DNA of 64,000 nt from contig JAIBBN010000003.1 of assembly GCA_019694655.1 (NCBI GenBank), positions 248,001 through 312,000 on the forward strand, given 5' to 3'. This document shows, one piece after another, positions 20,320 through 34,582 of this stretch. The DNA comes from Leptospirales bacterium (GTDB lineage Bacteria > Spirochaetota > Leptospiria > Leptospirales > Leptonemataceae). The position numbers were made by a program, and so were the translations under genes. The notes below the pieces were generated by a model. It searched no databases. It was not told the DNA's origin and saw only the letters and a list, made by a program, of their open reading frames with translations. Position 1 is the first letter of the stretch. Every line of letters starts with the position of its first letter.

Positions 20320-21519
20320 TTGCAGACCGCGCTGCAGGAGCTGGCGCGGCAGTCGCTGCTGGCCATGGGAAGAAGCGCGCCCAACCCGCCGGTGGCGGCG
20401 GTTGTGTTGGAGCGTTGCGGCAGATCCTGGTCCCAGGCTGCAGCCGGCGCGACCGAGCCGCCTGGCAGTCGCCATGCCGAGATTGTCGCGCTGGATCGTC
20501 TGACTGCACACAGGCCGCCGTTTGGTGCAGAGCCTGATGCGCTGCGCATGTATGTGACCCTCGAACCCTGCACGCACACCGGCCGGACGCCGCCCTGCAC
20601 GCGTCGCATCCTCGCCACGGACGCTCTCCATACGCTGCGCGCCGGCTGCCGCGACGCAAGCCTCGCGATTTCCGGCATCGAGCAGCTGCAAAGCGCTGGT
20701 CGCCGCGCCGCTATCTGGCCGCCCCTGGCGCGACTGGCCGACGACTTCCTGGCCGGATTTGTTTCGCGCAGCAGCGGGCAGGGGCCGCGCCTGCATCTCA
20801 AAGCGGCGATCGATAGCGCCGGTCGCATGGGCAGACGCAGCGCCAGGCAGAGGATCAGCGGGCCGGCAGCTACGGCCTTCGTACATGCCCTGCGCTCCAG
20901 AATGGATGCTGTGGTCGTCGGTCCCGGCACAATTGTTTACGATCGTCCGCAGCTCAACGTACGCTCTGCTGATGCGGAGGCTCTAAGCCAGGCGGCCGAA
21001 GGCGCAAGATCCGGTCGCGATTGGCTGAGCGCTTCGATTGTGGCGCACTGTGCGATGCTGCTTCAGTCGCCGCTCCAGCAACCGCGTCGCTTCTTCTTGC
21101 TTGGCGATTTTTTTCAAGATGCCGCCGTCTGGCTGCGCATGCAGGCGGCATTGCCTGGGCCAGCGCCGCACTATGCGCTGCTGGAAAACGGCGATCGGCG
21201 CTGGCTGACGCTGGCCGCCGACTGCTCTACTTTGCCAGCGGTGCGCGATGCGCAATTCCCTGCCGCCTTGCGCTCCTGGCTGACGGCGGCCGGCTGCAAT
21301 GATGCGCTGATCGAATGTGGACCGGGTCTGCTGCGCGCCCTGCGGCCTTCCATGCAGCGCTGCGATCGGCTGCTTCTGCTGGAATCAAGGCTGGTCGCTG
21401 ATCCTGGGCCTGAGGCCGATGCCATCTACGCGCCTCGGGAAATGCTGGAGGGCCTGCGCCGCTTTGCGGATGTTCGCTGGCGGGAAGACGAGTTGAGTCT
21501 CTGGCATGTCGCTGACTGA
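20320..21519 (+). CDS. ribD: Bifunctional riboflavin biosynthesis protein RibD (deaminase/reductase)
   Basis: RibD deaminates and then reduces the pyrimidine intermediate of riboflavin synthesis. The N-terminal deaminase domain has the zinc site H52-A53-E54 and TLEPCTHTGRTPPCT (C84, C93). The C-terminal reductase domain begins near LHLKAAIDSAGRMG. About 399 residues. The likely start is TTG at 20320, 17 bp after secF; no ATG or GTG gives the conserved N-terminus. The 3' end overlaps pcrA by 14 bp. No other rib gene is in the window. The reductase half is more divergent than the deaminase half. Confidence 0.86.
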   Translation: MQTALQELARQSLLAMGRSAPNPPVAAVVLERCGRSWSQAAAGATEPPGSRHAEIVALDRLTAHRPPFGAEPDALRMYVTLEPCTHTGRTPPCTRRILATDALHTLRAGCRDASLAISGIEQLQSAGRRAAIWPPLARLADDFLAGFVSRSSGQGPRLHLKAAIDSAGRMGRRSARQRISGPAATAFVHALRSRMDAVVVGPGTIVYDRPQLNVRSADAEALSQAAEGARSGRDWLSASIVAHCAMLLQSPLQQPRRFFLLGDFFQDAAVWLRMQAALPGPAPHYALLENGDRRWLTLAADCSTLPAVRDAQFPAALRSWLTAAGCNDALIECGPGLLRALRPSMQRCDRLLLLESRLVADPGPEADAIYAPREMLEGLRRFADVRWREDELSLWHVAD

Positions 21520-23791
21520 GAAAATCAAAGCGGAGCTAATCCGCGGACTGAATGATGTCCAACGCGCCGCTGTAGAACACGGCGAGGGGCCGCTGTTGAT
21601 AGTTGCCGGCGCCGGCTCCGGCAAGACGCGAGTCATCACACATCGCATCGCCTATCTGGCGCGCATCCACAATGTCGCGCCCTGGCGGATTGTAGCGGTA
21701 ACCTTTACTAACAAGGCAGCCGGCGAGATGCGCGAACGCCTGGCCTCGATCATGGGGCCAATGGCCGAAAATGTCTTTGTACGCACCTTCCACTCCCTGG
21801 GCCTCTATCTGATCAGTCGCAACGCCGATCGCCTGGGTCTGAAGTCATCCTTTAGCGTTCTCGACCAATCCGCGCAGACCACGCTGCTCAAGACGGTGAT
21901 GAAAGATCTCAAAATGAACGACGGAGGATTGACGCCGCAGGCGGCGGCCCAGGCTATCAATCGCGCCCGCGACGCCTACCAGTCCCCGGAAGACGGCGGG
22001 ACCGACGCCTTTTATGGATCGCGCATTGCCGAGATCTATCGCGAATATCGCAAGCGGCTGCGTGCAGCAAACGCCGTGGACTTCGGCGATCTGCAGTATG
22101 AAGCGGTACGACTTCTGGAGCAACATGAGGACCTTCTGGCCTACTATCAAAATCTCTGGCGCTATCTGCTGATTGATGAATACCAGGATACAAATCGCGT
22201 GCAGTACCTGCTGGGTCGGATGCTGGCAGCGTCGCGGCCTAACATACTGGCCGTCGGCGACGATGATCAATCGATCTATTCCTGGCGCGGCGCAGACATC
22301 AGCAATATTCTGAATTTTCAGAAGGACTATCCTTCAGCGCGCTTGTTACGCTTGGAGGAGAACTACCGCAGCACCCCCGAGATCCTGCGGGCCGCTTCGA
22401 CGCTGATCGCGCACAATCGACAGCGTCATGAGAAAACGCTTTATACGCAGCGCGAGTCCGGAGATCGACTGCGCTACCAGAGCTACGAGGACGAGGAAGG
22501 AGAGGCGCGGGCGATTGTCAGCATGTTGCGAAGTTTACGCTCGCAGGGCCGCGCCTACCGCGAGATGGCGGTCTTTTACCGAACCAACGCCCAGTCGCGC
22601 GCATTGGAAAAGTCGCTGCAGGATGACAACATTCCCTACGTTCTGGTTGGCGACATTCGTTTTTATGAACGCAAGGAGATCAAGGACTTGTTGGCCTACC
22701 TTTCGGTCGCAGTCAATCCGGCAGACGACCTCAGCCTGGAGCGCATCCTGAATACGCCGCCGCGGGGCGCCGGTGAAACCACGCTCGACAAATTGCGCGC
22801 CTTTGCCGCGCGCGAGGGACTTTCGTTGCTGGCAGCGCTGGGGCGCGTTGGCGAGCTGCCCGGCATTCGCGCCGCTGGCAAGCTTGTAGCGCTGTCACGT
22901 CGCTTTGCAGACTGGACCCAGGCCGCAGGCGATCCCGCGCTGGAGGCCCCGGCCAGCCTCGCCGAACGAATCCTGCGCGAAAGCGGCTACGAGGAATGGC
23001 TGGAAAACGATAGCAGCCATGACGCTCCGGGCCGCCTGGAAAACCTGCGCGAATTTCTGGCCGGCGTAGAACGCTTTCAAAAGGACTGGCTGGCCACGCC
23101 GCAACTGGTGCAAGATCAGAACGTTGATCCGGCATCCTTCGTTCCCGATCAGGCGCGCCAGTCGCCGCCGATGCTTCGCGACTACCTGCAGCGCATCGCT
23201 CTGTATACCTCCGATGTGGAAGGCCGTAGTGCAGACGGAGGTGAGAGCGTTTTCTTGATGACTTTGCATAATGCCAAGGGTCTGGAATTTCCTGTGGTTT
23301 TCATTGCCGGCCTGGAAGAGGGCTACATTCCACATGCCCTGGCGGTGGAGGAGGGCGGCTTAGAGGAAGAACGTCGCCTGCTCTATGTAGGGCTGACGCG
23401 AGCGCGCGAACAACTCTTCCTGAGCGGCGCCCGGCGACGCCTGGTCTTTGGCGGCTACGAAAACAGAGCGACATCGCGTTTCTTGCGCGAAGTGGATAGT
23501 AGGGTCTTCGTATCACGACCCGGACTGGAAGAGTTGCACTCCTCGCCGCCGGAAGGACCGCCGCGCGCTGCAGCGGGCGGCACAATGCACTGGCGGGGCA
23601 AGAGCCAACAACGCACGGACCTGCGTCAGTATCGCGTCGGCGAGCGCGTCGTCCACCAGCGCTATGGTCCGGGGGCCATTCTCAGCGCCGAAGCGGCGCC
23701 GGTTGGCCAGAAGGTCTGCATACTGTTTGACGCGGAGCAGCGTGAGCGCTATTTTCTGACCGCTTACACGCCGCTGCGGCCGGAAAAGTGA
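21506..23791 (+). CDS. pcrA: ATP-dependent DNA helicase PcrA/UvrD
   Basis: A superfamily 1A 3'-5' helicase for repair and plasmid or replication-fork maintenance. The 761-residue protein has Walker A AGAGSGKT at 34-41, the TFTNKAAGEM motif Ia, DEYQDTNRVQY (motif II), GDDDQSIYSWRGA (motif III), and LEENYRS (motif IV). TLHNAKGLEFPVVFI (motif V) and VGLTRAREQLFL (motif VI) complete the set. The C-terminus (VGERVVHQRYGPGAIL) resembles the PcrA RNA-polymerase-binding Tudor-like tail. The start codon lies inside the end of ribD, implying coupled translation. Confidence 0.95.
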   Translation: MSLTEKIKAELIRGLNDVQRAAVEHGEGPLLIVAGAGSGKTRVITHRIAYLARIHNVAPWRIVAVTFTNKAAGEMRERLASIMGPMAENVFVRTFHSLGLYLISRNADRLGLKSSFSVLDQSAQTTLLKTVMKDLKMNDGGLTPQAAAQAINRARDAYQSPEDGGTDAFYGSRIAEIYREYRKRLRAANAVDFGDLQYEAVRLLEQHEDLLAYYQNLWRYLLIDEYQDTNRVQYLLGRMLAASRPNILAVGDDDQSIYSWRGADISNILNFQKDYPSARLLRLEENYRSTPEILRAASTLIAHNRQRHEKTLYTQRESGDRLRYQSYEDEEGEARAIVSMLRSLRSQGRAYREMAVFYRTNAQSRALEKSLQDDNIPYVLVGDIRFYERKEIKDLLAYLSVAVNPADDLSLERILNTPPRGAGETTLDKLRAFAAREGLSLLAALGRVGELPGIRAAGKLVALSRRFADWTQAAGDPALEAPASLAERILRESGYEEWLENDSSHDAPGRLENLREFLAGVERFQKDWLATPQLVQDQNVDPASFVPDQARQSPPMLRDYLQRIALYTSDVEGRSADGGESVFLMTLHNAKGLEFPVVFIAGLEEGYIPHALAVEEGGLEEERRLLYVGLTRAREQLFLSGARRRLVFGGYENRATSRFLREVDSRVFVSRPGLEELHSSPPEGPPRAAAGGTMHWRGKSQQRTDLRQYRVGERVVHQRYGPGAILSAEAAPVGQKVCILFDAEQRERYFLTAYTPLRPEK

Positions 23792-32594: not shown

Positions 32595-33527
32595 ATGGCG
32601 CAAAGCAATAAGCTCGTCTTCAAGCCCGCCCAGATCGCACAGGTGCAGGAATCGGTGGAGCTTGATATCCCCGATAAGTACAAGAAATACCAGGGGATCG
32701 ATGAGACCGATGAGTACGAGGTAGATGCCGACGGCAATGTAATTGAGCAGTACCACGGCCCAACGATTGAAGAAATCGAAGCCGAACTGGAACGCTACCG
32801 CAAGGAAACCGAAGAGCGCATTCAGAAGGAAGTGGATGAGGCGCACGAGCGCTCGCGCCAGATCGAAGAAGAGGGCAAGGCCGTCGCCTTCAACCTGATC
32901 CAGGAATCCAAGGAAAAAGCCAAACGCGAAGAAGAAGCGGCCCGGCTGAACGCCGAACAGATCATCGAGCGCGCCAAACTGGAAGTCGAGCGCATGGTCA
33001 AGGACGCCGAAATGCGCGTCGCCGAAATCGAGCATGAGGCCTACCAGAAGGGCTATGACGCCGGCCGGGAAGTCGGCTTCAAGAAGGGACAGGCCGAGGT
33101 TCGGCGGCTCATTGACCGCCTTGGAACCATTGTAGGCCAGGCCATTGACGTGCGCGAAGAGATCATTGCCGCCTCCGAAAAGCAGATGGTGGATATGATC
33201 CTGATGATTGCCCGCAAGGTGATCAAGGACGAAGTAGTCGAACGGAAAGAAGTCGTCCTCAACAATATTCGCGAAGCTCTGAAGCGAATTAAGGATCGCG
33301 ACCGCGTCGACATCCGCGTCAACTTTGCGGACCTGGAATTGACCACGGCGCACAAAGACGAACTGATCAAGATGATGGAATCGCTGCGCAAGGTCAACAT
33401 CTACGAGGATTCGCGCATCGATCGCGGCGGTTGTATTATCGAAACCGACGTTGGATCGATCGACGCCCGCATCTCTACCCAGCTCAAGGAAATCGAAGAG
33501 GCAATTCGCAACGCCGAGCCGTTCTAA
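32595..33527 (+). CDS. fliH: Flagellar assembly protein FliH
   Basis: FliH binds and restrains the flagellar export ATPase FliI. The 310-residue protein starts MAQSNKLVFKPAQIAQ. A long charged coiled coil follows (about 55-170, repeated Glu/Lys/Arg heptads including VERMVKDAEMRVAEIEHEAY and the GYDAGREVGFKKGQ Gly-x3-Gly segment). The C-terminal globular domain contains MILMIARKVIKDE, VDIRVN and RGGCIIETDVGSIDARI. These are typical of spirochaete FliH. It normally lies with fliF, fliG and fliI, but no other flagellar gene is in this window. Confidence 0.9.
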   Translation: MAQSNKLVFKPAQIAQVQESVELDIPDKYKKYQGIDETDEYEVDADGNVIEQYHGPTIEEIEAELERYRKETEERIQKEVDEAHERSRQIEEEGKAVAFNLIQESKEKAKREEEAARLNAEQIIERAKLEVERMVKDAEMRVAEIEHEAYQKGYDAGREVGFKKGQAEVRRLIDRLGTIVGQAIDVREEIIAASEKQMVDMILMIARKVIKDEVVERKEVVLNNIREALKRIKDRDRVDIRVNFADLELTTAHKDELIKMMESLRKVNIYEDSRIDRGGCIIETDVGSIDARISTQLKEIEEAIRNAEPF

Positions 33528-33533
33528 CATAGT

Positions 33534-33570
33534 GTGCAGAGCATCAGGCATCCTGCCTGATGCTCTGCAC
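33534..33570. repeat. Perfect 17-bp inverted repeat 6 bp after fliH
   Basis: GTGCAGAGCATCAGGCA (33534-33550) is followed by TCC and its exact reverse complement (33554-33570). A 17-bp perfect stem with a 3-nt loop is very stable as RNA and can extrude as a cruciform. No T-run follows, so it may stop or protect the fliH transcript without being a canonical terminator. It is part of a larger repeat island. Confidence 0.92.
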
Positions 33571-33623
33571 GAAATTCATTCGCAATCGAGACGCGCAAGG
33601 CATCCCTGCCTTGCGCTGGTCTT
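33549..33623. repeat. 75-bp imperfect direct repeat, copy A
   Basis: This stretch recurs 165 bp downstream (33714-33788) with about 10 differences in 75 positions. It includes a perfect 10-bp hairpin, GCGCAAGGCA/TGCCTTGCGC, at 33593-33616 around a TCCC loop. The hairpin is identical in both copies, so it is the better-conserved part. Confidence 0.88.
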
Positions 33624-33633
33624 GCGCACATTC

Positions 33634-33706
33634 GGCCTTTGCGCAAGTTCCTTGCCCGGCGCAGCTTGCATCGCTGCGCCGGCGTCGCTGCGCTCCGGCA
33701 AAGGCC
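33634..33706. repeat. Nested inverted repeats between the two direct-repeat copies
   Basis: An inner perfect 10-bp stem (CCGGCGCAGC at 33656-33665 with GCTGCGCCGG at 33673-33682, 7-nt loop) is enclosed by an outer 9-bp stem (GGCCTTTGC at 33634-33642 with GCAAAGGCC at 33698-33706). Together they would fold into one long branched hairpin. Confidence 0.75.
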
Positions 33707-33713
33707 GCGCCGA

Positions 33714-33788
33714 CATCCTGGCTGATGATCTGCACACAGTTCATTGGCAATTGAGGAGCGCAAGGCATCCCTGCCTTGCGCAGGTCTT
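33714..33788. repeat. 75-bp imperfect direct repeat, copy B
   Basis: The second copy of the element at 33549-33623. It starts CATCCTGGCTGATGATCTG and contains the same 10-bp hairpin at 33758-33781. The 17-bp palindrome found at the start of copy A is not intact here. From 33789 to about 33985 no gene is seen. That stretch holds a further hairpin (33917-33929 with 33955-33967, 13 bp with one G-U or mismatch) just ahead of the pyrophosphatase gene. Confidence 0.88.
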
Positions 33789-33985
33789 CGCTACCCTTGG
33801 CCAGGCGCAGCCTGAGCCGAGGCCCCTGTGTGTTTTAGATTGGGCCTGGCGGCGGCATGAGCCGATGGACGGGGCAGGACAGCTTCGCCCCGCAAAGTTC
33901 CAGGCTTGTCGGATTGGCACAGGGCCCGGTCGACACAGTCGAGAATTCCTCTTGCCGGGCCTTGTGCAGCGGCCACATTCGGCAG

Positions 33986-34582
33986 GTGGCAAGCGAGCAT
34001 ACTTCGAGTCTAACGCCGTGGAAGACGCCAGATCATCTGGAAAATACAGCCTGGCATGCGGTTGATATTGGTCCGGTACACGAGTTGTGGTGTTTCATCG
34101 AAATCCCACGCGGATCCAAATACAAGTACGAGATGCACAAGCCAACAGGCATTGTGATGGTCGACCGCGTGCTGCACAGCGCGGTCCACTATCCGGCCAA
34201 CTACGGTTTCATTCCGCGAACCTTCTGCGACGACAATGACCCCCTTGATGTACTGGTGCTTGGCCAGCAGGAGGTGGGCCCCAGCGTGCTGATGCGCGGC
34301 CGGCCCATCGGCGTCATGACCATGCACGACAATCAAGAACGCGATGATAAGATCATTGCCGTCCATGCCAACGATCCGGAATACAATCACTACCAGGATA
34401 TCAGCGAGCTTCCCGGTCACAAAACCAGGGAACTGGAACGCTTCTTCACCGACTACAAGGCCCTTGAGTATGAGGGGCGGCGCGTGGAAATTGATCGATT
34501 CTCTGGCGCCGAGGCGGCGCGACGCATCATCCATGATGCTGTAGAATTGTATATCACCACCTATGTAAATCGGAAGCAATGA
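33986..34582 (+). CDS. ppa: Inorganic pyrophosphatase (family I)
   Basis: A soluble pyrophosphatase that hydrolyses PPi and drives biosynthesis. Family signatures include [37 protein letters not shown], the metal site [19 protein letters not shown] and the K-x2-D-Y-K segment near FFTDYKALE. Homology begins around [19 protein letters not shown]. The start is uncertain: no ATG lies close in frame, GTG at 33986 gives 198 residues, and CTG at 34039 would be closer to the family start. It overlaps the next gene by ATGA. Upstream lies the repeat island. Confidence 0.9.

Follow-up and report, generated by a model that had tools for sequence, protein, structure and literature searches.

Between the stop codon of fliH and the start of ppa, the genome of an uncultured Leptospirales-type spirochaete contains a gap of 458 bp (positions 33528-33985) that holds an island of palindromic DNA, which raises the question of whether this island belongs to a family of repeat elements, represents a structured RNA or is a chance cluster. 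The window analyzed here is a stretch of 64,000 nucleotides (64 kb), and the source genome (G000) comprises 33 contigs and is 95.85% complete. The GTG start of ppa at position 33986 is consistent with the end of the gap at 33985. In the following, W designates the island after fliH in the window, S a second array located between pheS and pheT, and R a dispersed element.

The palindromic island between fliH and ppa

An earlier note, made from the letters of this DNA, had described a perfect 17-bp inverted repeat close behind the fliH stop codon, a 75-bp direct repeat with the same 10-bp TCCC-loop hairpin in each copy, nested inverted repeats between the copies and a further hairpin ahead of ppa. 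All of these features were recovered, and they are referred to as P1, H2 and inner stems in Table 1; the nested repeats consist of a hairpin with an enclosing long-range stem, and the hairpin ahead of ppa was found to be weaker and is treated as separate from the W element. The GGCATCC(C)TGCC core that the hairpins were said to share is present in P1 and in both H2 copies, whereas it was not found in the second P1 half (GACATCCTGGC), the ppa-proximal hairpin and the other hairpins. In total, W extends over 1.45 units.

Table 1. Features of the fliH-ppa locus, with positions counted from the first nucleotide of the window
Feature	Position	Strand	Description
fliH	32595..33527	+	ORF; NCBIfam FliH NF005198, E 3.3e-103; stop codon precedes the island
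P1	33534..33570		37-bp palindrome; perfect 17-bp arms, loop TCC, apex GGCA-TCC-TGCC; starts 6 bp past the fliH stop
75-bp direct repeat, copy 1	33549..33623	+	Repeat search
H2 copy 1	33593..33616		Hairpin GCGCAAGGCA-TCCC-TGCCTTGCGC, 10-bp arms
Inner stems	33634..33706		Long-range GGCCTTTGC...GCAAAGGCC around hairpin CCGGCGCAGC...GCTGCGCCGG (33656-33682); centroid fold and hairpin scan
75-bp direct repeat, copy 2	33714..33788	+	Identity to copy 1, 87%; starts of the copies 165 bp apart
P1'	33719..33737		Right arm of a second P1, in inverted repeat with 33532-33550 (89%)
H2 copy 2	33758..33781		Identical to H2 copy 1: GCGCAAGGCA-TCCC-TGCCTTGCGC
ppa-proximal hairpin	33918..33966 (about)		CACAGGGCCCGG / CCGGGCCTTGTG; read from sequence, also in the gap fold; weaker
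ppa	33986..34582	+	GTG start in frame; inorganic pyrophosphatase models to E 5.7e-46; same-place homologues in relatives

The window contains ten hairpins whose arms measure 9 bp or more, and four of them fall inside 248 bp of W. When the window was shuffled 12 times with dinucleotides kept, the arms reached 12 bp at most, compared to 17 bp for P1, and the 263-nt core of W yielded an RNA fold of -142.9 kcal/mol with a z-score of -8.7. Both values show that W is not the chance cluster to which a negative outcome would have reduced it according to the earlier note.

The locus was then compared with 48 spirochaete fliH loci. W was absent from every syntenic fliH-ppa gap among them, and in relatives in which ppa comes next, the distance from the end of fliH to the same ppa residue was 7 to 207 nt versus 473 nt in the genome with W. 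No same-genus genome showing the filled and the empty site was found. Behind the closest fliH (95% identical; locus L021) lies a different array, whose hairpins have GNA triloops; this array (L021:3930-4130) consists of three tandem units of ~90 bp with the hairpins CAGCCG(C/G/A)AGGCTG and GACGGCGTAAGCCGTC and is unrelated to W. The 3' side of fliH gathers differing hairpin arrays, of which W and the array of L021 are examples.

Array S and the dispersed element R

The earlier note had named a multi-copy result as support for an element family, and a search by sequence did not provide it. BLAST of W in its own genome returned only the self-match, neither the palindrome of 17 bp nor the hairpin of 24 bp recurs in the genome (BLAST and pattern search), no true copy was detected by BLAST in 60 relatives or in plasmids, and a scan of viral contigs gave nothing for the hairpin core. 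By sequence alone, W is single-copy and lineage-specific. The 12-mer GGCATCCCTGCC occurs four times in the genome, two of these occurrences lying in W. Central BLAST matches in the same genome (e.g., L007-L018) were attributed to chance, being short and GC-rich and lacking the hairpins. By itself, the bare core GGCATCC(N)TGCC was rejected as family evidence, as it is common phylum-wide and exceeds the reversed control in many genomes, and its other occurrences in G000 lie mostly within reading frames and lack long stems.

A structure-based hairpin scan detected S, which lies between pheS and pheT, 70 kb from W on the same contig (G000:C3:211390-212163); in this array, a 174-bp unit is repeated 4.4 times in tandem (94% matches). 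The opening palindrome of S (C3:211394-211430) has perfect 17-bp arms, a 3-nt loop and the ends GTGCAG...CTGCAC as in W, and a whole-genome pattern search found only two 37-bp palindromes with these ends, those of W and S. Both arrays start with ATAGTGTGCAG and have the common ends ATAGTGTGCAG...CTGCACGAA(A)TTCA; the palindrome is followed in both by GAA(A)TTCA and later by a TCC-loop hairpin CGCAA...TTGCGC, and the order P1-spacer-H2 is common to the two. Most inner positions of the palindrome arms differ between W and S, with full complementarity kept. Local alignment of W and S scored 35 under strict scoring (shuffle mean, 20.2; sd, 3.2; maximum, 34 in 500 shuffles) and 43.5 under relaxed scoring (shuffle mean, 20.5; sd, 3.4), values whose significance is overstated because shuffling does not preserve palindromes, the strict score being barely above the best of 500. 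The resemblance lies mainly at the ends and in H2, and the common ends are a stronger argument for the kinship of W and S than the alignment scores. A sequence-only copy search can miss palindromic elements of this kind, in which ends, order and loop are common and the stems are rewritten.

A hairpin survey of 1.24 Mb, about a third of the genome, contained GTCCCAAAAC...GTTTTGGGAC palindromes with the apex CCATCCGTGG, which constitute the 5' part of R. This element of ~190 bp is present in 8 near-full copies (77-92% identity) on many contigs of G000, along with about 10 partial or solo copies of the ~50-bp palindrome. It starts with TAAGAGC, continues with P1, a long-range stem around hairpins, H2 (GCGACCTCCTGTCGC) and a second terminal palindrome (AGAGCCGGTTTTGGGACCGGCTCT) and closes with TTA; its termini are inverted (TAAGAGC...GCTCTTA), inspection of the flanks by eye showed no target-site duplication, and the fold z-score is -10. 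Among the R copies, 94.2% of 62 pairs were kept and five pairs were changed on both sides, with 37 of 500 shuffles as high. Covariation inside R is modest, as expected for recent copies. Elements with the order of R were also found in two genomes from other genera of the same family (G006 and G012), and H2 of the former (GCAAGGTCATCCTGACCTTG) is similar to H2 of W. In G006, a TPP riboswitch (L233:1266-1356, minus strand; RF00059, 71.7 bits) lies directly ahead of the R-like element. Another contig of the source genome (G000:C25; L091:1470-1820) carries, at about 21285-21620, a further intergenic island rich in hairpins, with a stem of 17 bp (94%) and the apex GGGCATCCGTGCCC.

The periods of W and S, 165 and 174, are both multiples of three, and open frames run across both arrays, as would be the case for a relic of repetitive coding sequence. 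Most differences between the copies of W are nonsynonymous whichever frame is read, so W is not a protein. One minus frame of S showed a synonymous-to-nonsynonymous relation near 1:1, which is not decisive. Chance is ruled out by the 17-bp arm and by the z-score of the fold. We consider it highly improbable that W is either such a coding relic or a chance repeat cluster.

Genomic placement and class assignment

According to ORF heuristics, the neighbors of 20 classifiable elements are convergent in 8 cases, co-directional in 12 and divergent in none. Elements with assignable neighbors always lie behind at least one gene 3' end, and in the 12 co-directional cases the mRNA strand carries TCC seven times and GGA five times. 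Published REPs lie mostly between convergent or unidirectional ORFs, near the upstream 3' end (PMC3733652). Placement at 3' ends without strand preference is the behavior of REP, BIME and MITE sequences.

The same placement could be read as a sign that the hairpins have been kept as the 3' end of fliH, as a terminator or an mRNA-stabilizing structure that sets the flagellar operon apart from ppa. The position and the high stability of P1 would fit such a role, as would the unrelated hairpins that follow the close fliH of L021 in the same position. However, no T-run follows the hairpins, and scans of the fliH-ppa gap for standard promoters (sigma-70-like, both strands) and terminators found neither. 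Moreover, syntenic relatives lack the island, and the same layout sits within the pheS-pheT gene pair. A conserved 3'-end function is therefore quite unlikely.

We favor a mobile-element-like origin. Similarly to the GTAG- and CGTC-tagged REPs and the BIMEs (PMC3733652), W is palindromic, extragenic and noncoding, its units are grouped, and it lies close behind an upstream ORF, with divergent gaps avoided by the elements as a whole. It differs from them in being single-copy, where REPs and BIMEs have many copies of one consensus (the related R is multi-copy), and in its 17-bp P1 arms, which are longer than typical REP stems; furthermore, neither P1 nor H2 of W is accompanied by an unpaired GTAG or CGTC tag. 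In R, a CGTC occurs at P1, with most of its bases paired instead of forming an unpaired tag. A search of G000 (95.85% complete) for a Y1 (IS200/IS605-type) transposase (PF01797) of the kind that RAYTs represent found none, with controls positive. CGTC REPs have been reported from Spirochaetes without a dedicated transposase, and no mobilizer has been assigned to them (PMC3733652). The REP- or BIME-like reading of the earlier note is supported in part: the kinship is seen only in the layout and in the compensated stems of the S array and the R elements, and not in repeated copies of the 17-bp palindrome or the 24-bp hairpin.

The second comparison was with small MITEs and ERIC-like elements. 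ERIC elements are intergenic, noncoding, multi-hairpin sequences of about 127-200 bp with inverted termini. The elements described here resemble this group in size, in their several hairpins, in the inverted termini of R and in their intergenic, noncoding nature, and they differ from it in that no target-site duplication was seen, no parent transposase was identified and the units are in tandem (1.45 in W, 4.4 in S). Because W is not multi-copy and carries no REP tag, and because no RAYT was found in its genome, it is placed by resemblance and is not assigned to any named family. With a probability of roughly two in three, we interpret W as a low-copy, lineage-specific, BIME/MITE-like palindromic element that is partly tandem-duplicated and is one of a wider REP/BIME- or small-MITE-type set in this uncultured spirochaete. 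W thus adds a new case, from a spirochaete lineage that is uncultured, to the familiar bacterial palindromic repeats.

According to the model that we propose, one unit of ~200 bp would have a long P1 palindrome at either end and, between them, first the short TCC-loop hairpin H2 and then the inner stems, and W would contain in addition a partial second unit (the P1' half and H2) in tandem, 165 bp on. W probably reached the site immediately after the fliH stop, or expanded there, at a place where such elements may be tolerated. Either the hairpin DNA could have been mobilized in trans, or replication could have slipped at the hairpins. Should the gap be transcribed, the RNA between fliH and ppa would carry stable hairpins, which could protect transcripts or terminate them. 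It is in this sense that we infer mobility, tandem expansion and transcription of W and any effect on fliH or ppa.

The TCC/GGA apex

On the plus strand of the elements (P1 to P1'), the apex TCC was found in all 22 H2 hairpins and in 17 of 20 P1 palindromes, a tally of strings transcribed from earlier listings by a selection that was not blind, with one outer stem pair normalized and the apex untouched. When the loop triplets of every hairpin were counted, GGA/TCC was not strongly enriched; enrichment was seen only with a stricter CA..TG apex: among the 64 triplets at CA-(N)XYZ-TG apices in the 1.24 Mb sampled, GGA ranked first, with 8 noncoding occurrences (3 of them in W) versus a mean of 0.46.

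The minus-strand apices of W, CAGGAUG and CAGGGAUG, resemble the known CsrA hairpin site, and the genome encodes CsrA (G000:C7:61176, E 2.5e-24). Along with the top rank of GGA and with loops that remain constant on varying stems, this would be expected if the minus strand gave rise to a CsrA-binding (CsrB/RsmZ-like) RNA, in which CA-(N)GGA-UG apices sit on arbitrary stems and the array titrates CsrA. RNAs of the CsrB/RsmZ type likewise present several GGA-loop hairpins with variable stems on one strand. However, a strand-specific RNA role such as CsrA titration is disfavored because the class displays no strand preference. The GGA strand of W is antisense to fliH-ppa, the scan for sigma-70-like promoters was negative on both strands, and the tandem and dispersed copies suggest the spread of an element, not one sRNA gene. 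We regard the CsrA-binding reading as possible but not favored, and on balance unlikely. The structured RNA that the earlier note had offered as the alternative to an element family found no match in Rfam either; W gave sub-threshold matches only, and S, R and the elements of G012 and G006 matched no family. The TwoAYGGAY RNA motif (RF01731) is similar by name, its terminal AYGGAY loops recalling the minus-strand apex of R (ACGGAU), and differs in that none of these elements matched it.

A broader and rather improbable hypothesis is that W, S and R are among a class of elements whose stems vary freely while the TCC/GGA apex stays fixed, because the apex is all that a loop-reading factor, either CsrA on RNA or a recombinase on single-stranded DNA, recognizes. 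The elements would then be mobile regulatory hairpins that spread by structure and not by sequence, and comparable apices seen in other spirochaete families would be counted with them. The constant apex, if functional, would allow a direct test for such a factor (CsrA or a hairpin recombinase). Tandem repeats of 54 bp with the hairpins GCCATCCGTGGC and GACACCTCCTGTGTC were observed in a further genome (L149; G033:C3:124877-124997), and TCC-apex hairpins like these also occur in L142 (G066) and L143 (G058). In the source genome, the hairpins GTTACAGGGATGTAAC and CTCCCAAGGATGGGAG (G000:C2:399347 and C3:405127, both minus strand) are located just ahead of ATG codons and resemble CsrA target sites in leaders.
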